64,000 bases of DNA, from contig NC_013222.1 in assembly GCF_000024125.1 (NCBI RefSeq), positions 1,116,001-1,180,000 on the forward strand, given 5' to 3'. Shown piece after piece: positions 15,325-34,881 of this stretch. Each line of letters begins with the position of its first letter. Positions within the stretch are counted from its first letter, which is position 1. This stretch comes from Robiginitalea biformata HTCC2501 (GTDB taxonomy: Bacteria; Bacteroidota; Bacteroidia; Flavobacteriales; Flavobacteriaceae). Position numbers and translations under genes: made by a program. The notes below the pieces were generated by a model, which did no database searches, had not been told where the DNA came from, and saw nothing but the letters and a program-made list of their open reading frames with translations.

Positions 15325-18300
15325 TTAAAACCCAAATCCAAAACCCACCTGGAAGAAATTCCCTTCCCGGGAGTTAAAATATCCGATGTTGAATGCCAGG
15401 TAATTGAAACCGCTGATCCAGAAGCCCCCGCCCCGGCTTGTGTGCCATACGCCGGATGATTCCCCGGGGTTCCAGACGCGGCCGTAATCGAATCCGCCAT
15501 ACAGCCCCACGGTTACGGGTGCCACCAGGGTGACATATCGCTTGATCCGCCATCGCAGGTCGGTGCTCTGGTAGAAATACGTCCTGCCCGTGAATCGTTG
15601 GTCCCGGTACCCCCTCAATCCGTTGTCCCCACCCAGGGCAGGGGCCTGGTAGAAGAAATAATCGCCCCCGAAGTTCGTGCGAACCTCCGCAGTGGTACCC
15701 AGCACCAGGTCGCCGGAGGGGATTACTTTATGGGAAAGCGACAAGCGGCTTTGCAAGTAGCCAAAATGCCTTTCGGCATCCCGGAGGTTCCATTGATACC
15801 CGGCCGATAACCCGATGTAAATGGCTTTTGTGGGGAAATCGTCCACATCGTCCGCATGGTAGCTGAGCTCGGTTTCGGCCCCCGCGTAATGCTGGCGCGT
15901 GAAGACATCCGGGTCCAGGTTTTCAGGGGTAAAGAACCGGTCTTCGAGTTCCTGGGCCTTATGGGTTTCGTACACGGCCCGGATCTTCAGCGTATGGTAG
16001 GCGAGGCCGGCACTTGCACGGGCAGACTGGACGCGGGCGCGATAATAATCGATGTCCAGGTCGTCCTCCAGGTTCACGGTTTCATTGCCGATCCCGAAAA
16101 AGTTCCGGACAAAGCGGTTGGAGGCGTAATAGGCTTCCGTCTCAAAGTTCCACCCCGGCAGGGCATTGGCATACACCCCGGAATAGGAAGCTTCGAGCGC
16201 TCCGAAATTAAAAAAGTACTTGGCGCCAAATCGGTGCTGCTGCCGGAAGTCCTCCCCGTTGAAGCCTTTATACGTATAGGTGTCTGTGGCACCGATGGCC
16301 AGGCCGTCGTCTACCCGAAACCCGAGGAAGGGGACCAGTTTGTTGAAACTCGGCTCGTAATAGCGCCAGTGATAGGTGTTCGTGGAATAGATGTTCGTAT
16401 ACTGGTGGCGGGGTTCCCGGTTGGAGAATTCGGTCTTCTCGTATTCCCAGTCGTAGACCTTCAGGCGTGAATCATTCCCGATTTCGAACCGGTCTTCCCC
16501 GTACCCCCCGATCAGGCGGATGAATGTCCTTCCTGTACCCGGGCCGGTGACGCGGAAGATATCGTCATCCCCCAGGCCGTAAATCCAGAGTTCCCGCGTT
16601 TCCGCAGCCTCCAGGGTACGGTCCAGCATCACCGTATTCGGCTCGTCAGTCAGGTTGCGGCGGATTACCACCCGCGTATTGCCTTCGGGCAGTCGCTCTA
16701 TCTCGATAATATCGTCTTTTTCGGTGCCGCGGAGGATTACGCGTCGATCCAGGGATTCCCCATAGGCCAGAGCCGCCTGATGCAGGTTTTTCAGTCGCAC
16801 TTTCAGGTCGTTGCGGATGGATGCGGCCGTGCTGTCCTGCACCTCCTGCGGCAACCTTTCAAAGGCGGCATCTATTTCCGCGTCCCCGAGGTGCTCCTGG
16901 ATATACCGGGCTTCGGCCACCCAGTCTTCTTGTCGCATATCGGGGAGCAATACCTTATCCAGGCGCCCGCCGGAGGTATTCAGCCATTTCAGGTTTCCGT
17001 ATTCCGGGCCAAAGGACTGGAAGCGCCGGCTTCCCGGGGCAAACCACTGGATTACCGGGAGGGCTGTCCCGTCAAACTTCGGGAACGCATTGTCGCGGTC
17101 CCTGGGGACCGGCATAAACTCCACGGAACCGTCGGGCTTTTCGTATTCCACCCAGCGCCACTGGTCCTGGTGCCGGTCCCAGTCGCCTATGAGCATGTCA
17201 AAAAGCCTGGCCCGGACATAGGCCCGTTGGTCCAGGGTGTAGGACTCATCGCTCCGCAGGAGCTCCAGCATGTCCGTCGTGCTCTCAAAGTCCTTGATCT
17301 CGCCCTTCTCGTCGATGGTGCGGCGGTACCCTTTGTAATTCAGCTGCTCGTCCGATGGGCGTTCCTCGATAAAGTAAAGTTCGTCGCCGAACTCCGCATT
17401 CAGTTCGCCCAGGGCTTCCTGTTTGGGGATGTAGTACAGGCTGGGGCTGGAGTGGTTGACCCCGATACTCCTTGCCAGCGGGCTGATAACCAGTTGCATG
17501 TAGGGATGGGCCGTGGTAAAAAAATCGCTTACCACCTCGTGTGCCAGCGTCTCCTTGTAGTCGTCCGGGACGTAAGCCACCCCGGGGACCTTGAAGGCCA
17601 GGAATTTCAGGGCGTCCTTGCGGAGGGAGCGCATGGCGTATTGTCTGCCCTGGGCATCTTCCAGGCGGATGGAATACGACTGGTGGCCGCCCCCTTTCTG
17701 GGTGACCTTCAGCCCCCCGTAAAGCGTATCGAGGGAGGCCACCGGCGCCGTGACTTTCTCCCCGAAATACTCCCGGTAGCGATCCCCCCACAGGAAGGTG
17801 TAGAAACCGTTCTTCCGGTATTGCTCCGGATCGTCCAGTACCCTGGAGGCCACTTCCGCCTCGGCGGGCATTTCATACGGTCCGCCGGATTCGGGTTCCG
17901 GCAGGGCCGGCAGCAGTTCATAGGACACTTCCTGCCCCCCTTCCGGGAAAAACCGGACCGAAACGGACCCGTCCGGATAGGTGTCCAGCCGGGAAAATCC
18001 CCGGGAACCGTTTGTATAGATACCCTCGTATTCCAGGGATCCCCCAACGGTTGCCAGGGTTTCTTTTGACCGGTGGGTTGCCGTGGCCCGGCCCAGGGAA
18101 CCGCTGATAATCTGGTGGATGGACTCCGACCTCAGGTACTGCAGGCTCTCCTCATGGGCGGATACGACGACGGCCCGGTCGGATTTCTGCGCCAGGGCCG
18201 AGACGAGGATACGCAGGTAGTTGTATCGGCGGGAGATCAGGCGGTCGGGCGAAAAGGCGCCCAGGTCGGCAGTGGCGTGGATCATCGTTCCAATAACCGG

Positions 18301-19062
18301 GGCGGGTCGCATATGGCTCCCAAGGGTTTCTTTCCCGGCGTATTTCCCGTTGCTGAAGAGTGGGTGGTGCATGGCGATAATGAGGTTTTTTCCCTGGGCA
18401 TCGTTGATATACCCGTCCAGCTCCTCAGCAAAGCGCTTCCGGGTATCCATCACGACGCACGCTTCATTGATGTGTTCCACCCGCGACCAATTCGAGATAA
18501 ACCATTTGGAATCCACCAGGATGATCGCCAGGCGGTCGTTGATATCCCGGTATTCGATGGGGCATTCGCCGACGAGCTGCATCTTGAGGGCAGTATCCCG
18601 CTCTTCCATGTAATCCTCCACCCACTTGCGTTTGCGCGCCGAGAATTCCTTCCATTCGTTATTCCCTGGAATCAGCGTGGTCCGTCCCTGAAACCGGCGG
18701 AGCAAATCCAGTTGCTCGCCCAACAGGGCCGAATCCCGCTCCCGGTTTCCGGGCTCCTCCGAGATCATATCCCCCAAAAGGAGCAATTCGGAATTCGTGC
18801 CGGCAGCTGCCAGTTCGCTTTCCAGGCGGGTGAGGGATTCCGCGGGCTTCTCGGGGTCTGTGTGGCCCCAGCCGCCGGCCAGGAAAAAGGTGTATTCGGG
18901 TGAAGCGGCCGCGGGTCCGGCTGTCGGGACCGATTTTTTGACCTGTGGCTTGTAGGTGGCGCACCCCTGGAACAGGAGGGCTGCGAGGATGGCTCGGGCC
19001 GCCCATTGGACCGGGCGGCAAAGGCCTTGGTGAAATGTTTTGTTCTGGGACATGCGTTGCAT
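15325..19062 (-). CDS. Giant lipoprotein: degenerate phosphoesterase, kinase-like region, outer-membrane barrel
   Basis: This 1,245-residue lipoprotein (lipobox FQGC, C34) is a paralogue of the plus-strand gene at 30263-33991. Residues about 50-340 are calcineurin-like, but metal ligands are lost: the first motif reads GGWG where the paralogue has GDAG, GDN is GDM, GNHD is GNNE, and GHEH is AHEE; MHHP survives. Residues about 410-790 carry KGGGHQSYSIRL and LIGDWDRHQDQWRW (D629-R-H631) with PRDRDNAF, resembling Fam20/HipA-type kinases. The last ~350 residues look like a BamA/TamA-type barrel ending in aromatic VGFGFGF. A second in-frame ATG is at 19053. The phosphoesterase half is probably inactive. 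Confidence 0.85.
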   Translation of the reverse strand: MQRMSQNKTFHQGLCRPVQWAARAILAALLFQGCATYKPQVKKSVPTAGPAAASPEYTFFLAGGWGHTDPEKPAESLTRLESELAAAGTNSELLLLGDMISEEPGNRERDSALLGEQLDLLRRFQGRTTLIPGNNEWKEFSARKRKWVEDYMEERDTALKMQLVGECPIEYRDINDRLAIILVDSKWFISNWSRVEHINEACVVMDTRKRFAEELDGYINDAQGKNLIIAMHHPLFSNGKYAGKETLGSHMRPAPVIGTMIHATADLGAFSPDRLISRRYNYLRILVSALAQKSDRAVVVSAHEESLQYLRSESIHQIISGSLGRATATHRSKETLATVGGSLEYEGIYTNGSRGFSRLDTYPDGSVSVRFFPEGGQEVSYELLPALPEPESGGPYEMPAEAEVASRVLDDPEQYRKNGFYTFLWGDRYREYFGEKVTAPVASLDTLYGGLKVTQKGGGHQSYSIRLEDAQGRQYAMRSLRKDALKFLAFKVPGVAYVPDDYKETLAHEVVSDFFTTAHPYMQLVISPLARSIGVNHSSPSLYYIPKQEALGELNAEFGDELYFIEERPSDEQLNYKGYRRTIDEKGEIKDFESTTDMLELLRSDESYTLDQRAYVRARLFDMLIGDWDRHQDQWRWVEYEKPDGSVEFMPVPRDRDNAFPKFDGTALPVIQWFAPGSRRFQSFGPEYGNLKWLNTSGGRLDKVLLPDMRQEDWVAEARYIQEHLGDAEIDAAFERLPQEVQDSTAASIRNDLKVRLKNLHQAALAYGESLDRRVILRGTEKDDIIEIERLPEGNTRVVIRRNLTDEPNTVMLDRTLEAAETRELWIYGLGDDDIFRVTGPGTGRTFIRLIGGYGEDRFEIGNDSRLKVYDWEYEKTEFSNREPRHQYTNIYSTNTYHWRYYEPSFNKLVPFLGFRVDDGLAIGATDTYTYKGFNGEDFRQQHRFGAKYFFNFGALEASYSGVYANALPGWNFETEAYYASNRFVRNFFGIGNETVNLEDDLDIDYYRARVQSARASAGLAYHTLKIRAVYETHKAQELEDRFFTPENLDPDVFTRQHYAGAETELSYHADDVDDFPTKAIYIGLSAGYQWNLRDAERHFGYLQSRLSLSHKVIPSGDLVLGTTAEVRTNFGGDYFFYQAPALGGDNGLRGYRDQRFTGRTYFYQSTDLRWRIKRYVTLVAPVTVGLYGGFDYGRVWNPGESSGVWHTSRGGGFWISGFNYLAFNIGYFNSREGNFFQVGFGFGF

Positions 19063-29018: not shown

Positions 29019-30221
29019 CTATTGGGGCAATTCAATAATCCGTTCCGGCCCGTAGAATTTCAGGGCGACAAAGAAGGCGATCACCGAAAGGATCATCCCC
29101 ACCATAAATATCGTGTAGGTCCATCGCAGCAACTTGTATTTGCGCTGCAAGACCACCCCGAGGAAATACAGGTCCTTGGTGAGCGTGTTGTACACGTAAT
29201 ATTTGTCTTTGATCAGCTCCTGCATGGCCCATTCGTAATCCGGCAGCTTCATTTTGTGGAAGTTGCCGAAAAACAAAAGGTTGACTTTTTTCTCGGCCAC
29301 ATCCTCCTTGGTGAACTGGCCGCTGGTAACATTCGGCCGGGTAGCCAGGATGGACAGGATCATGGATATGATACTGAATACGATAAAGATCACCGTCGGG
29401 TAGATCAGGTAGTCGTTTGTCGGGTTGTCCAGTTTGGGGATGAGGTTGGCGATTACCAGGGAGATGATGATCGCGTTCACGGACAGCAGGATATTCGCCT
29501 TGGTGTCTGCTATATCGCTTAGCTTCAGGTGGTTTCGCATGGATACGCGGTACATGGTCTGAATGCCGCGTTCCGGGCTTTCGTTTTTGTAGTAGGCCTT
29601 GAGTTTTTCCTTCTTGGCCATCTTCCGCCGCTTTTTCTTGTCTTTGACCAGCCGGCGGATATTGTCGTCTTTGCCTTCCTGCCAGTTCTCCAGGGCGTAC
29701 TGCGTGTAGTACTGGTGTTCGGCGCGGAACATCTTGATGTTCGTCTCCCGCCATTCCTCGGGGGTGTATTCGGCCAGGCCCAACAGGGAAAGCTCCTCCC
29801 GCAACAACTCGGCGGTCTCCCGGTAGCTTTTCTGGCTCAGGTGGGAGGAATCCGCATCCCGGAGGATTTTTTCCGCCAGATTTTTCGGGGTGTAGAACCG
29901 CCGGGTGGCCTCGATCAGTTCGCATACCCGCTCAATTCGATCCTCTTCCAGGTCCTTCCCGCCCAGGAATTCCCGGGCAATTTCGCAACTTTTTGTCTCA
30001 TGGTCCTGACTGCCAGCGGTGTATCCCGTATCGTGCAGCCAGGCAGCCAGGATGACTTCCTCGGCCCGCCCCGGGTCCAGCTCATGGTGTTCAAGCAATT
30101 CTTTTGTACTTTGTACCACGCGCTGCGTATGCCTCAGGTTATGGTATAAATACCGCTCATCCAGCTCTTCGGTGAGCAATTTGGTCACATACTTGCCCGT
30201 GCTTTCCGCCAGCTTTGTCAT
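29019..30221 (-). CDS. HD-domain hydrolase fused to a Pycsar-effector-like (PycTM) membrane domain
   Basis: This 400-residue protein has an N-terminal HD domain (about 20-190): RHTQRV (H31), AAWLHDTGY (H63-D64) and RDADSSH supply the metal ligands. A basic linker (VKDKKKRRKMAKKEKLKA) follows. The C-terminal part begins MYRVSMRNHLKLSDIADTKANILLSVN and has three membrane helices (about 265-290, 295-315, 375-395), the layout of the DUF5706/PycTM effectors that damage membranes after cCMP or cUMP binding in Pycsar defence. No cyclase is encoded nearby. It may bind and hydrolyse a nucleotide signal. It is divergent from the giant lipoprotein gene, with only 41 bases between the starts. Confidence 0.82.
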   Translation of the reverse strand: MTKLAESTGKYVTKLLTEELDERYLYHNLRHTQRVVQSTKELLEHHELDPGRAEEVILAAWLHDTGYTAGSQDHETKSCEIAREFLGGKDLEEDRIERVCELIEATRRFYTPKNLAEKILRDADSSHLSQKSYRETAELLREELSLLGLAEYTPEEWRETNIKMFRAEHQYYTQYALENWQEGKDDNIRRLVKDKKKRRKMAKKEKLKAYYKNESPERGIQTMYRVSMRNHLKLSDIADTKANILLSVNAIIISLVIANLIPKLDNPTNDYLIYPTVIFIVFSIISMILSILATRPNVTSGQFTKEDVAEKKVNLLFFGNFHKMKLPDYEWAMQELIKDKYYVYNTLTKDLYFLGVVLQRKYKLLRWTYTIFMVGMILSVIAFFVALKFYGPERIIELPQ

Positions 30222-30262: not shown

Positions 30263-33200
30263 ATGTCTCCCAGAAGTGCCCTTGCAAAACATTTTGTCGC
30301 AATCGCCGCAGGGGTGTTCCTTTTGGGGTCCTGCGCCACCTATGCCCCGAAGTATGCAGACCCGGAACAGGCCACCGATGTCGAAAGCCAGTCGGAGGTG
30401 GCCCATACATTCTATCTGATAGGGGATGCCGGCCTCTCCCCCCTGGGAGGGATGAACCCGGTCCTGGAGCGCTTCCGGGACCGGCTGGCAGCCGCCGATA
30501 CGAATAGCACTGCAATTTTCCTCGGGGACAATATTTACCCGGCCGGACTGCCTGATGCCGCGGATTCCACCCGTGCCTTCATCGAAGCATCCAGCCACCT
30601 GGAAGCCCAGTTGCGAACCCTGGAGAATTACAGGGGGCGCCCGGTTTTTATCCCCGGGAACCACGATTGGTACAACGAGGGGATCATCGGCCTGAAGCGG
30701 CAGGAGAACTACGTGGAAAACTACCTGGGCCGGAAGGATGTTTTCTTGCCGGAAGACGGCTGCCCGATCGAGACCCTGGAAATATCCGACGACCTGCTGG
30801 TAATCCTGGTGGACACGGAGTGGTACCTGACCAACTGGGACAAGCGCCCGGCCATCAACGACGACTGCGAAATCAAGAACCGGGACGTGTTCTGGGAGGA
30901 ACTCGGGAGCGAGATTAAACAACACGCGGACAAGACCATCTTACTGGCCACCCACCACCCGATGTTCAGCTACGGGGTCCACGGCGGGCAGTACACCTTC
31001 CGGCAACAATTCTATCCGTATTCCGGCAAAATACCCCTCCCGATCCTCGGGACGCTGGTTAATTTGTTCCGGAAGACCGCGGGGGTATCTGTGGAGGATA
31101 TGCAGAACAAACGCTACCTGGAGCTACAGAAGCGGCTGCTGACCCTGGCACGGTTTGGGGAACGGGTGGTGCTTGCCTCCGGTCACGAGCACACGCTCCA
31201 GTACATTGTATCGGACGGGTTGCCGCAGATCGTCAGCGGATCGGGAGCCAAAAAGGGGGCCACCAACCAGTTGGGCGGCAGCGTGTTCACCACGGGGCAA
31301 CGGGGGTATGCCGTGCTGGAGGTGTACGAGGACGGCAGCTCCCGGGTGCGATACTATGGGGTGGACGATGCCGGGAACGAACGATTTTTGTTCACCTCCT
31401 CCGTTTACTCCCCCCCATTTGAACCGGACCCGGAGATTTTCGAGGGCGAGTTCCCGCCTCGGGTAAAAGCCTCGGTCTACGATTCGGTAGAAGTAGACAA
31501 ATCCCGGTTGCATACGCGGCTCTGGGGGCCCCGTTACCGGAGGCTCTACGGGGAGCCGGTGGAGGTCCCGACCGTGCGCATCGACACCTTGTACGGGGGG
31601 CTGACCCCGGTTCGGAAAGGGGGCGGACAGCAGTCCAAGTCCCTGCGGCTTCGCCATCGAGACGGCCGGGAATTCGTGATGCGGGCCCTGCGGAAACAGG
31701 CCGAGCAAAACCTGCAGGCGATGGCTTTCCAGGACCAGTATATTATCGGGGACCTGGAGAACACGGCCCCGGCAAACCTGTTGGAAGACCTCTACACGGG
31801 GGCGCACCCCTACGCGCCTTTCGGGCTTTCCCCATTGATGGACACCCTGGATATCTACCACACGAACCCCCGGCTGTTCTATGTGCCGAGGCAACCGGCT
31901 CTGGGCAAATACAACGAGGATTTTGGAGACGAACTCTACATGATTGAGGAACACCCCTCGGAAGGGCACGAGGACCTGGCGAGTTTCGGGTATGCCGAAG
32001 ACATCGAGAGCACCTTCGACCTGCTGGACAACCTGCGGGATGACGAAAAGTACCGCGTGGATACTGATGCCTATATCCGCGCCCGGCTCTTCGATATGCT
32101 TATCGGCGACTGGGATCGTCACCAGGACCAGTGGCGCTGGGCGGAGTTCGAGGACGAGGAAACCGGAAACGTGGTCTACCGGCCCATCCCCAGGGATCGC
32201 GACCAGGCGTTCTCCATCATGGGCGACGGCCTGATCGGCAGTATCCTGACCCGCCTGGTTCCCGGGGTTAAAAAGATGGAGGGCTTCAATGAGGAAATCC
32301 GCAATATTCGGACCTTCAACACGAATCCTTTTTCCCTGGATATGACGCTGCTCGGGGGGACGACGCGTTCCCAATGGCAAGAGCAGGCCCGTATCATCCG
32401 GGAACGGGTGACCCCGGAGGTAATCGAATCGTCCCTGGAAGGCATCCCTCCGGAGGTTCGCGGCACAACCAGTATCCGGATCCGGGAAACCCTCCTGGCC
32501 CGGCTGGGGAGCCTGGACCATTTTGCCAATACGTATTTTGAGGTATTGCAGCGCTACCTGGTGGTTGCCGGGACCGACAAGGACGACTGGTTTGAAATCC
32601 ATTCGCTTCCCGACGGGGGGGTATCCGTCAAAGCCTACCGGAATATCCAGGGAGCGAAGAGCAAGTTATTTTTCGAACGGACCCTGCAGCCCGGCCTGAC
32701 GCGGGAAATCTGGGTGTTTGGCCTGGACGACGGGGACCGTTTTGACCTGAACCTGGCCCGGGAGTCCAAAATTAAAGTGCGGATTGTCGGGGGACTGGGG
32801 GAAGATCGCTACCTCACCACTTCGGGGGCCAAAGCGGTGGTATACGACCACGCCTCGGCAGATAACCGATTCGACGGCCCCGGACGCGTCAGGAAGGTGC
32901 TGACGGACAACTATCTGGTAAACACGTTTCAGCCGCTGAACCTGGCCAGCTTTACCAGCCAGCTTTTGCCAACCGCCGGGTTTAACCCGGATGACGGAAT
33001 GCGGCTGGGCCTGGGCTACAGTTTTACGCGCTACGGGTTCCGGCGCAACCCCTTTACTTACCGCCACACGGTGCAAGGGGCATTCTATTTTGCCACCAGC
33101 GGTTTCGATCTGGGGTATGAGGGAGAATTTGCCAATATCGCTGGCAATTGGAACATCCAGTTGAAGGCGCGGTATACGAGCCCGAATTTTACACGGAATT

Positions 33201-33991
33201 TCTTTGGCCTGGGCAACGAGACAGTGAACCCGGACGACGATTTGGGCCTGGATTATAACCGGGTTCGCCTTCGAATCCTCAGTGCCCGACCAGCCCTGAT
33301 CTGGCGCGGCCCCCTGGGAGGCAGCTTTCGCCTGGGCATGGACTATGAACGCTTTACGGTGGAGGAGACCGGAGACCGGTTCGTGAATACGTTTTACCAG
33401 GCCAACGGAGAAGAAAATTCCAACCAGTTCCTGGGGGCTACGGCCCGGTATTTCTATGAAAACCGCGACAACGACGCCTTCCCGACCCTGGGGATGGCCT
33501 CCAGCCTGGAAGCCGGGTTCAGGGAGGAACTCAATTCGGGGGGGGAGCGTTTTGGTTTTATTGTCCCGTCCCTGAGCCTGGACCACCGGCTGGTCCCGTC
33601 CGGCAGGCTGGTCCTGGCCACGAGGTGGAAGGCCCATTTTAACCTGGGGAACGGGTACGCGTTCTACCAGGCAGCGAGTATCGGTGCCAGCGACGGGCCA
33701 AGGAGTTACCGGAACGAGCGGTTCTCGGGCAAAACAGCCTACTACCAGATCACCGATCTGCGGTTGCAATTCGGGGAGATGTGGACGGGCCTGGTGCCAT
33801 TATCCGTCGGGGTATTCGGCGGTTTTGACTACGGGCGCGTCTGGCAGCCGGGAGATCCGTCCAAACGCTGGCACACATCGTACGGAGGCGGGTTTTTCCT
33901 CAATGGGATCGACGTGATCACTTTGAACACGGCCCTGTTCCACGGCGCGGACGGCTTCCGCTTCTCCTTTGGGCTGGGCTTTACGTTTTAA
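30263..33991 (+). CDS. Giant lipoprotein: phosphoesterase, kinase-like region, outer-membrane barrel
   Basis: This 1,242-residue lipoprotein (lipobox LGSC, C24) has three parts. Residues about 45-390 are a calcineurin-like phosphoesterase with intact ligands: D55 in GDAG, D89-N90, N133-H134-D135, H231-H232 and H308/H310 in GHEH. Residues about 410-770 contain a Gly-rich RKGGGQQSKSLRL, a Lys/Arg-rich MRALRK, LIGDWDRH (D618-R-H620) and PRDRDQAF (D645, D647); the order and spacing recall Fam20C (LIGNMDRHHYE, then LDNARGFG) and HipA kinases. From about 870 the sequence is a BamA/TamA-like beta barrel ending in FSFGLGFTF. ATG 30263 is chosen at the signal peptide. The stop overlaps the next, convergent gene by 3 bases. 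Confidence 0.85.
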   Translation: MSPRSALAKHFVAIAAGVFLLGSCATYAPKYADPEQATDVESQSEVAHTFYLIGDAGLSPLGGMNPVLERFRDRLAAADTNSTAIFLGDNIYPAGLPDAADSTRAFIEASSHLEAQLRTLENYRGRPVFIPGNHDWYNEGIIGLKRQENYVENYLGRKDVFLPEDGCPIETLEISDDLLVILVDTEWYLTNWDKRPAINDDCEIKNRDVFWEELGSEIKQHADKTILLATHHPMFSYGVHGGQYTFRQQFYPYSGKIPLPILGTLVNLFRKTAGVSVEDMQNKRYLELQKRLLTLARFGERVVLASGHEHTLQYIVSDGLPQIVSGSGAKKGATNQLGGSVFTTGQRGYAVLEVYEDGSSRVRYYGVDDAGNERFLFTSSVYSPPFEPDPEIFEGEFPPRVKASVYDSVEVDKSRLHTRLWGPRYRRLYGEPVEVPTVRIDTLYGGLTPVRKGGGQQSKSLRLRHRDGREFVMRALRKQAEQNLQAMAFQDQYIIGDLENTAPANLLEDLYTGAHPYAPFGLSPLMDTLDIYHTNPRLFYVPRQPALGKYNEDFGDELYMIEEHPSEGHEDLASFGYAEDIESTFDLLDNLRDDEKYRVDTDAYIRARLFDMLIGDWDRHQDQWRWAEFEDEETGNVVYRPIPRDRDQAFSIMGDGLIGSILTRLVPGVKKMEGFNEEIRNIRTFNTNPFSLDMTLLGGTTRSQWQEQARIIRERVTPEVIESSLEGIPPEVRGTTSIRIRETLLARLGSLDHFANTYFEVLQRYLVVAGTDKDDWFEIHSLPDGGVSVKAYRNIQGAKSKLFFERTLQPGLTREIWVFGLDDGDRFDLNLARESKIKVRIVGGLGEDRYLTTSGAKAVVYDHASADNRFDGPGRVRKVLTDNYLVNTFQPLNLASFTSQLLPTAGFNPDDGMRLGLGYSFTRYGFRRNPFTYRHTVQGAFYFATSGFDLGYEGEFANIAGNWNIQLKARYTSPNFTRNFFGLGNETVNPDDDLGLDYNRVRLRILSARPALIWRGPLGGSFRLGMDYERFTVEETGDRFVNTFYQANGEENSNQFLGATARYFYENRDNDAFPTLGMASSLEAGFREELNSGGERFGFIVPSLSLDHRLVPSGRLVLATRWKAHFNLGNGYAFYQAASIGASDGPRSYRNERFSGKTAYYQITDLRLQFGEMWTGLVPLSVGVFGGFDYGRVWQPGDPSKRWHTSYGGGFFLNGIDVITLNTALFHGADGFRFSFGLGFTF

Positions 33992-34881
33992 TCCTCGGCG
34001 TCCCGGGGGATCGGCAGGGGAAAACTGTATAAATTGCCCCCGCGCCCCACGCTCCGTTCATCGGCGAGGTAGACGAGGGTTTCCGTCACAAAACAAATGC
34101 CTTCCAGTTGGGTATTGGTCCTGAGGGAGATCTTCCGGGGGGGCTCTTCAAACCCGGTCCTGGCAAAGTTCTCGTAGACCCAGAGGTAGCCATACCCAAG
34201 CAAGACCAGCCGGTTTCCGCTGGGCGAAAGGGCGGCGTCGGTTACCTGGCACGCGCGCCGGTCATCGCATATGGGGATCCGGGCAAAGATTTCCGCCTCG
34301 TATTCGCCGGGTTGGTCGGGTACCCGGTAGACGGTGGCCATCCCGTTAAACGGCACCGCCCGGTTTTTGGTCACGATGTAGAGATGCCCCCCCTGGTGGA
34401 ACAGGGCTTCGGCATCAAAGAACCGCCCCTTCTTCTTGGGCGGGAATTTTTTCTGGTCGGGATAGGTAAAACGGATGGCCTCCGCGTCGATCTTGTCGCC
34501 GGGCTCCGACCGGGGGTCGGGCAGGCGGTAAATCACCAGGTCGTCCCGGTAGTTCTGGTTGTTTCCGAAGTCGCCGATATAGACCCGGTCCAACGAATCG
34601 CGGGTCATGGCCTCCCAGTCCGTATTGCGGGCATGGTCCACTTTGAACTCGCGGACCAGGTTGCCGGTGGAATCCACCTCCCGGATCTTATCCGGGTTGC
34701 TGCTATCCTCGACAATCCAGACTGTTTTCCCGTCATAGGTGATCATGCCGGAGGCCTCGTTTATAGGGCCCGGCAACCGGCAAACGTATTCCAGCTGTCC
34801 GTATTGCGTACAGCTATATCCCAGGAGGGCGGTGATTAAAATCAGGGATTGACGAAACGATTTGCTGCCGAGTTGGGCCAT
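33988..34881 (-). CDS. Putative beta-propeller lipoprotein
   Basis: This 297-residue protein has an N-terminal lipoprotein-like signal (LLGYSCTQ, Cys near 24). The body shows repeated beta-blades: INEASGMITYDGKTVWIVEDSSNPDKIREVD, DWEAMTRDSLDRVYIGDFGNN, DAEALFHQGGHLYIVTKNR, VTDAALSPSGNRLVLLGYG and LEGICFVTETLVYLADER. This resembles the SdiA-regulated and esterase-like phytase propellers, but I cannot assign a substrate. Its 3' end overlaps the 3' end of the giant lipoprotein gene, on the opposite strand. Confidence 0.75.
   Translation of the reverse strand: MAQLGSKSFRQSLILITALLGYSCTQYGQLEYVCRLPGPINEASGMITYDGKTVWIVEDSSNPDKIREVDSTGNLVREFKVDHARNTDWEAMTRDSLDRVYIGDFGNNQNYRDDLVIYRLPDPRSEPGDKIDAEAIRFTYPDQKKFPPKKKGRFFDAEALFHQGGHLYIVTKNRAVPFNGMATVYRVPDQPGEYEAEIFARIPICDDRRACQVTDAALSPSGNRLVLLGYGYLWVYENFARTGFEEPPRKISLRTNTQLEGICFVTETLVYLADERSVGRGGNLYSFPLPIPRDAED

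Follow-up and report, generated by a model that had tools for sequence, protein, structure and literature searches.

Hardly any kinases are known, to our knowledge, that act in Gram-negative bacteria outside the cytosol. PI4KII, CtkA and HipA, which all adopt the kinase-like (PKL) fold, are cytoplasmic or effector proteins. In animals, the phosphatase TRAP dephosphorylates Fam20C-type substrates, e.g. osteopontin. Enzymes joined to outer-membrane barrels have been described separately. The available text on PlpD, a patatin-Omp85 fusion, places its enzyme domain in the periplasm (PMC11116518). A further Omp85 subfamily, termed 'Metallo', combines an N-terminal PF00149 domain with an Omp85 barrel in the accessible part of its description (Heinz and Lithgow 2014, PMC4104836).

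Here we analysed a window of 64,000 nucleotides (the whole stretch considered) from the marine-type bacterium Robiginitalea biformata HTCC2501, whose genome comprises 3.53 Mb in one contig. The gene at 30263..33991 on the + strand encodes a three-domain protein, P0001, in a single open frame of 1242 aa starting from ATG. P0001 has the same order of an N-terminal PF00149 domain and then an Omp85 barrel, and very probably belongs to the 'Metallo' subfamily. Between these two parts lies a central region that we call domain X.

Results

P0001 begins with a lipoprotein signal peptide ending in LGS-C24 (30263..30334, + strand; this and all following parts of the gene are on the same strand). In an alignment of P0001 and 120 close homologues (121 rows), C24 is conserved in at least 98%. 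The model of residues 44-1242 (pLDDT 89.5, pTM 0.84) contains three folds: a TRAP/purple-acid-phosphatase-like domain (residues 45-395, 30395..31447), domain X with a kinase-like fold (residues 400-766, 31460..32560) and a 16-stranded Omp85/TamA-type barrel (residues 896-1238, 32948..33976). According to the secondary structure of this model, a beta-rich linker (residues 767-895, 32561..32947) joins X to the barrel. The original prediction of a lipoprotein made of a phosphoesterase, a kinase-like core and an outer-membrane barrel is thus supported by one continuous frame and three computed folds, and P0001 is predicted to be an outer-membrane lipoprotein of this composition.

For the first domain, a Pfam scan of P0001 (E up to 10) returned Metallophos PF00149 as the sole family (4.5e-9, residues 50-247). 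The site residues D55, D89, N133-H134, H231 and H308/H310 were found at the positions previously given for them. In an alignment of 68 selected full-length proteins, D55, D89, N90, N133, H134, H231, H308 and H310 were all present in 61 proteins. P0001 also carries Y92, which occurs in 61/68. We take D55, D89, Y92, N133, H231, H308 and H310 to be the seven metal ligands of TRAP/purple acid phosphatases, the tyrosine among them. The closest fold of the domain is TRAP, a bone-type acid phosphatase. With both this fold and these ligands, the domain is a member of that class; the phosphoesterase site is intact as first proposed, and its description as calcineurin-like can be narrowed to the TRAP/purple-acid-phosphatase type.

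The central region was modelled by AF2 as a two-lobe kinase-like fold with high confidence (pLDDT 94.8, pTM 0.93), and the 50 VIA matches listed in the fold search were PKL kinases throughout. CotH and PI4KII were the nearest folds (tied), followed by CtkA and HipA; for CtkA the Foldseek TM scores were 0.38 (query) and 0.52 (target). The Fam20C/Fam20A complex appeared only at Foldseek rank 43 (E 0.042). The kinase-like part of the earlier "Fam20/HipA-like" label therefore stands, while CotH and PI4KII replace Fam20 as the closest relatives in fold.

The motifs expected for such a fold were located at the residues predicted beforehand. The Gly-rich loop RKGGGQQSKSLRL (residues 451-463, 31613..31651) is flanked by two strands of the N-lobe. 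RALRK (residues 474-478, 31682..31696; MRALRK starts at 473) places R474 in the predicted strand that usually holds the beta-3 lysine of kinases, with K478 just after it. The catalytic-loop motif LIGDWDRHQDQ (residues 613-623, 32099..32131) has a helix-loop-strand context in the model. Within RDRDQAF (residues 644-650, 32192..32212), flanked by modelled strands, D645 sits at the position of the metal-binding DFG aspartate and is preceded by a beta hairpin. The order of the last two motifs agrees with the original prediction; their spacing does not, since D618 and D645 lie 27 and not 25 residues apart. Together with the two-lobe fold, the succession of Gly-rich loop, catalytic Asp and metal-binding Asp corresponds to that of the PKL superfamily.

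The set used to assess conservation comprised 78 X domains, all taken from this phylum's genomes; 32 of them belong to the best-scoring, closely related loci. D509, D616, W624, W626 and D645 are invariant (78/78). D618 (72/78) and H620 (73/78), whose loss together with that of D645 would have spoken against a kinase-like core, are largely retained, as are G453 (75/78), G454 (76/78), R474 (77/78), K478 (76/78) and Q623 (76/78). This motif conservation is far above chance. Given fold and conserved motifs together, we are nearly certain that X has a kinase-like (PKL) fold; this reading relies on them because sequence alone links X only weakly to known kinases.

Canonical kinases carry an asparagine at the fifth position beyond the catalytic Asp; X has a glutamine there, with N in only 2/78 domains. 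The beta-3 lysine appears to be an arginine in X, which has a parallel in another PKL family, Lani_1194, for which the published excerpt gives an arginine (R38) at the same position (PMC9758233). These substitutions raise the alternative that X is a pseudokinase, i.e. a nucleotide- or phosphate-binding switch for the phosphatase or the barrel gate that performs no phosphotransfer. D618 is indeed lost in 6/78 domains, and in some members the catalytic Asp or His is replaced by S, R, G, E or N. Among them are L044, L045 and L046, diverged copies lacking D618 from three genomes of one genus, each of which also holds an intact copy. Such pairing recalls Fam20A, the pseudokinase partner of Fam20C. 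Against a general loss of activity stands the retention of D618, H620 and D645 in most or all domains. Furthermore, X occurs without the phosphatase and without the barrel, so that it is not merely a switch of either. We consider the pseudokinase explanation decidedly unlikely and an active X likely, as judged from the modelled fold and its conserved residues.

Sequence searches gave X no family, in line with the earlier remark that this region usually goes unnamed. The Pfam scan of P0001 contained no CotH, Fam20C or HipA_C match. NCBIfam recognized the barrel alone, with Omp85_fam at 49 bits and thus under the curated cut-off of 200, and the centre received no name. Against PDB sequences the best match of P0001 had an E of 0.49 and lay outside the X motifs. 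When 63 X members were scanned with Pfam, HipA_C reached 0.0061 at best (1/63), CotH 0.017 (2/63) and Fam20C 9.5e-4 (1/63); unrelated families came at similar values, namely EnY2 (0.0051, 3 members), UCR_14kD (0.0082) and DUF1598 (0.0088). An X profile matched CtkA in the PDB at E 0.2; unrelated chains followed at 0.43 and 0.73. Comparing X with 20 sequences each by hhalign was borderline for CotH (P 0.0048, probability 7.4%) and non-significant for HipA (P 0.23, probability 0.3%). At this level X is only weakly linked to known kinases and the signal is near noise, with PKL matches little above unrelated ones. An identity of X with the Legionella family Lani_1194, whose homologues also occur in Flavobacteriales, was rejected on architecture: in the part of its description available, a methyltransferase domain is present in 94% of its members, which sets X apart (PMC9758233). 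X thus is a family absent from our Pfam and NCBIfam searches that may already be contained in KINtaro (72 PKL families) or in a 2020 review of bacterial PKL families.

X is widespread. Of 395 genomes of the phylum, 145 were matched by its profile, as were 142 of the 371 good ones. A protein search with residues 400-900, in which 8000 candidates were scored, found at least 5821 proteins (E up to 0.001), and within the best 120 of these the closest named homologues are from Robiginitalea. A scan of named genomes gave at least 585 relatives, the best 80 of which are mostly from Flavobacteriaceae (Maribacter, Zobellia, Polaribacter, Tenacibaculum, Flavobacterium). In a tree of 108 distinct X domains, 57 belong to phosphatase+X+barrel proteins, 36 to X+barrel proteins and 9 to lipoproteins with X alone, and in 6 cases X follows an N-terminal membrane anchor. 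The membrane-anchored forms make up one clade (support 100); one such stand-alone X of 430 aa is present in the genome of the window, adjoined by a PAP2 gene. A crude test detected a hydrophobic stretch within the first 75 residues of 106/109 X proteins, and a strict lipobox pattern applied to 39/109. The three proteins without the stretch start inside the phosphatase (L069), lie near a contig end (L037) or have a doubtful long start (L056).

For the X+barrel form, scoring 8000 candidates gave at least 3449 proteins; the named ones within the best 120 are mostly called BamA/TamA family or hypothetical, and Ignavibacteria records are included. Among the matches listed, X carriers in general are usually named metallophosphoesterase, BamA/TamA family or hypothetical protein. 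The barrel of P0001, which has the 16 C-terminal strands of Omp85 proteins, is itself of the TamA/BamA type, which makes the predicted outer-membrane barrel more specific. Type and names could suggest that P0001 is an Omp85 assembly factor (BamA/TamA-like) with N-terminal domains that serve to bind clients and enzymes that are relics. Relics would hardly keep the active-site residues of both phosphatase and X, however, and X is also known without a barrel, which makes such a role very improbable.

The window contains a paralogue with the same three domains (15325..19062, - strand), in which the phosphatase ligands are broken (GDMNNHHE instead of DDNNHHHH in the intact form) and 12 tested X positions are intact. 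It clusters with three relatives in the X tree (support 100). A dead-phosphatase pair from two genomes shares 45% (phosphatase), 66% (X) and 56% (barrel); for the intact pair from the same genomes the values are 67%, 62% and 59%. Three further dead-phosphatase pairs gave 47-52% for the phosphatase versus 62-66% for X, and three further intact pairs 58-64% versus 54-64%. Overall the ligands are broken in 7/68 proteins, in 6 of which all 12 X positions are intact; D618 is missing from the remaining one, L061. A conserved X beside a broken phosphatase means that X must have its own role.

Gene neighbourhoods were compared by BLAST clustering around 82 X loci, with flanks spanning roughly 4 to 7 kb as far as contig ends permitted (less at L003 and a few other loci) and cluster identities taken from examples checked by Pfam. 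In the window, P0001 is flanked by a divergent gene for a membrane protein with HD domain and PycTM (29019..30221, - strand; Pfam) and by a convergent gene for a 297-aa lipoprotein (33988..34881, - strand). HD and/or PycTM proteins occur near 41/82 loci (PycTM only for the member L112). The lipoprotein's own cluster is found near 7/82 loci and a separate propeller cluster (SdiA-regulated, phytase-like) near 28/82. The lipoprotein matched no Pfam model; its cluster mate at L108 has an SdiA-regulated match (1.1e-7). BLAST gave no matches common to the two clusters, and single comparisons between them showed weak similarity (E 0.002 and 0.033). Judged by these sequence matches, the lipoprotein is probably a propeller of the SdiA-regulated type.

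Genes of phosphate metabolism recur at these loci. SixA-like phosphatases are located near 12/82 loci and PPK1 near 10/82, the latter in ten genomes from five taxonomic families. About 0.5-0.6 of 82 loci would be expected to have PPK1 by chance, giving a probability of 10 or more of about 1e-9 to 1e-10 if kinship is ignored; PPK1 matches exist in 355/395 genomes of the phylum. In three more genomes (G286, G089, G100) X and PPK1 are about 7 to 13 kb apart. Two PPK1 matches are present in 8/10 of the linked genomes and equally in many unlinked ones, and in the genome of the window large distances separate both PPK1 genes from the X genes. The locus may or may not be an ordinary phosphate-starvation gene. 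A PPK-like gene is strongly induced in phosphate-starved Flavobacterium johnsoniae; Table 1 of that study, the part considered, contains no protein of the P0001 kind, which this species may or may not carry (PMC8115612).

The gene order HD, SixA, PPK1, X+barrel, propeller, OprO/P-like porin, CotH and PAP2 is complete in L074 and L089 and partial in L091, L076, L087 and L098. Pfam confirmed the CotH genes near X in L074, L089 and L091; apparent CotH hits in L076, L078 and L093 turned out to be type IX secretion sorting tails. An apparent link of X to cyclases (16-locus cluster) was set aside, as the cluster mixes cyclases with TPR/HTH proteins.

PAP2 genes are found near 8/82 X loci (4 members Pfam-checked), besides the one next to the stand-alone X, and APP1-type phosphatidate phosphatase genes near lipoprotein X genes in three genomes (one Pfam-checked). 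These neighbours, together with PI4KII standing level with CotH as top fold match, would agree with X being a lipid kinase, as PI4KII is inside eukaryotic cells; X would then act on an outer-membrane or periplasmic lipid, from which the phosphatase domain or the PAP2 or APP1 neighbours remove the phosphate. Yet a tie in Z does not tell which substrate is used. The kinases CotH, CtkA and HipA have protein substrates, and those of TRAP are phosphoproteins and small phosphomonoesters. A lipid kinase therefore appears unlikely to us.

Discussion

The most likely function of X is phosphotransfer in the envelope, here coupled to a phosphatase, as a part of phosphate or polyphosphate metabolism. X would transfer phosphate outside the cytoplasm and, together with the fused phosphatase, determine how far an envelope molecule, be it protein, glycan or lipid, is phosphorylated at the periplasmic face of the outer membrane. 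The barrel would hold both enzymes in the membrane and might serve as a passage for substrate or phosphate, and the recurrent phylum-wide gene neighbourhood would provide the setting. We regard this explanation as a whole as reasonably probable. Its parts differ in strength: the periplasmic side of the enzymes is suggested by analogy to the Omp85 protein PlpD, and a joint kinase-phosphatase cycle on one shared substrate is only a tentative proposal.

X catalysis could differ from phosphorylation, because Q623 replaces the usual Asn and R474, apparently, the usual Lys. Moreover, ATP is scarce in the periplasm, which makes the phosphate donor a question to answer. One conceivable solution is that X is an extracytoplasmic kinase independent of cytosolic ATP that takes its phosphate from polyphosphate, in a cycle with the TRAP-like phosphatase at the outer membrane of Bacteroidota. 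This polyphosphate, exported or imported, would be supplied by an X-linked second PPK1 and by the OprO/P-like porin of the neighbourhood. We consider this version improbable.

In the open-access literature we found no kinase of this kind and none fused to an outer-membrane barrel. The accessible parts of the literature on OMP76, TamL and the Bacteroidota BAM complex yielded nothing about X, and those of a pseudokinase review none of the terms looked for (PMC12599244). The relatives of P0001, common in this phylum, hint at how phosphate may be attached and taken off again in the cell envelope. If X acts as a kinase, the question is whether the Bacteroidota outer membrane is phosphorylated and from which donor; this is directly testable, since X is widespread and has clear catalytic residues.

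Compared with known systems, P0001 departs from the 'Metallo' description in two respects. PF00149 is named a metalloprotease there and corresponds to a TRAP-like phosphatase in our model, which in addition predicts a whole PKL domain between PF00149 and the barrel; the words kinase, phosphatase and phosphoesterase are absent from the main text as available (PMC4104836). PlpD likewise has its enzyme N-terminal to the Omp85 barrel, but in the portion of its description at hand it possesses a patatin-like and a POTRA domain and neither kinase nor phosphatase (PMC11116518). In contrast to the CotH spore-coat kinases (PDB 5jda), P0001 is fused to a phosphatase and a barrel and has no Pfam CotH match, and X is only about 9-12% identical to PI4KII, CtkA and HipA in the quoted fold alignments. 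Fam20C, a secreted animal kinase acting outside the cytosol, resembles X in motif order, though not closely in fold given its low Foldseek rank. The fused phosphatase and kinase folds of P0001 nevertheless recall the animal pair of TRAP and Fam20C.

Gene neighbourhoods of the kinase-like domain

Among the 82 loci of the predicted kinase-like domain (X) whose flanking genes were clustered by BLAST, HD and/or PycTM proteins were recurrent neighbours, being found near 41 of them. The window holds one such gene (29019-30221, minus strand), which encodes an HD domain fused to the PycTM membrane domain of Pycsar effectors. Given how often such proteins recur near X, this PycTM may have a role beside phage defence.

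A polyphosphate kinase (PPK1) gene was found near X at L035, L036, L040, L065, L073, L074, L076, L088, L089 and L098. Since a second PPK1 match is present in 8 of the 10 genomes with an X-linked PPK1, the linked gene may be a dedicated copy. Genes for a CotH kinase, an OprO/P-like porin and PAP2 occur near X at L074, L089 and L091; two distinct kinase-fold families, CotH and X, share one envelope gene cluster there.

Paralogues and diverged copies

A paralogue of the main gene lies 11 kb away from it in the window (15325-19062, minus strand); its phosphatase site is broken and its kinase-like domain intact. The same two-gene arrangement is seen in another genome (L100). The window genome also encodes a membrane-anchored stand-alone X (L003:1390-3473), with a PAP2 phosphatase gene 50 bases away on the same strand.

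Catalytic residues are lost in the diverged X domains of L039:6560-9143, L064:3866-6439 and L061:2597-6343, proteins that nonetheless retain a C-terminal part of barrel size. Lipoprotein X genes form divergent pairs or triplets in L044 (3665-5275 and 5393-7021) and likewise in L045 and L046, close to an APP1-type phosphatidate phosphatase gene. One copy per set reads GDWSRR, having lost the catalytic Asp and His, and the remaining one or two are intact. Together, the diverged and intact copies look like a pseudokinase-kinase pair.
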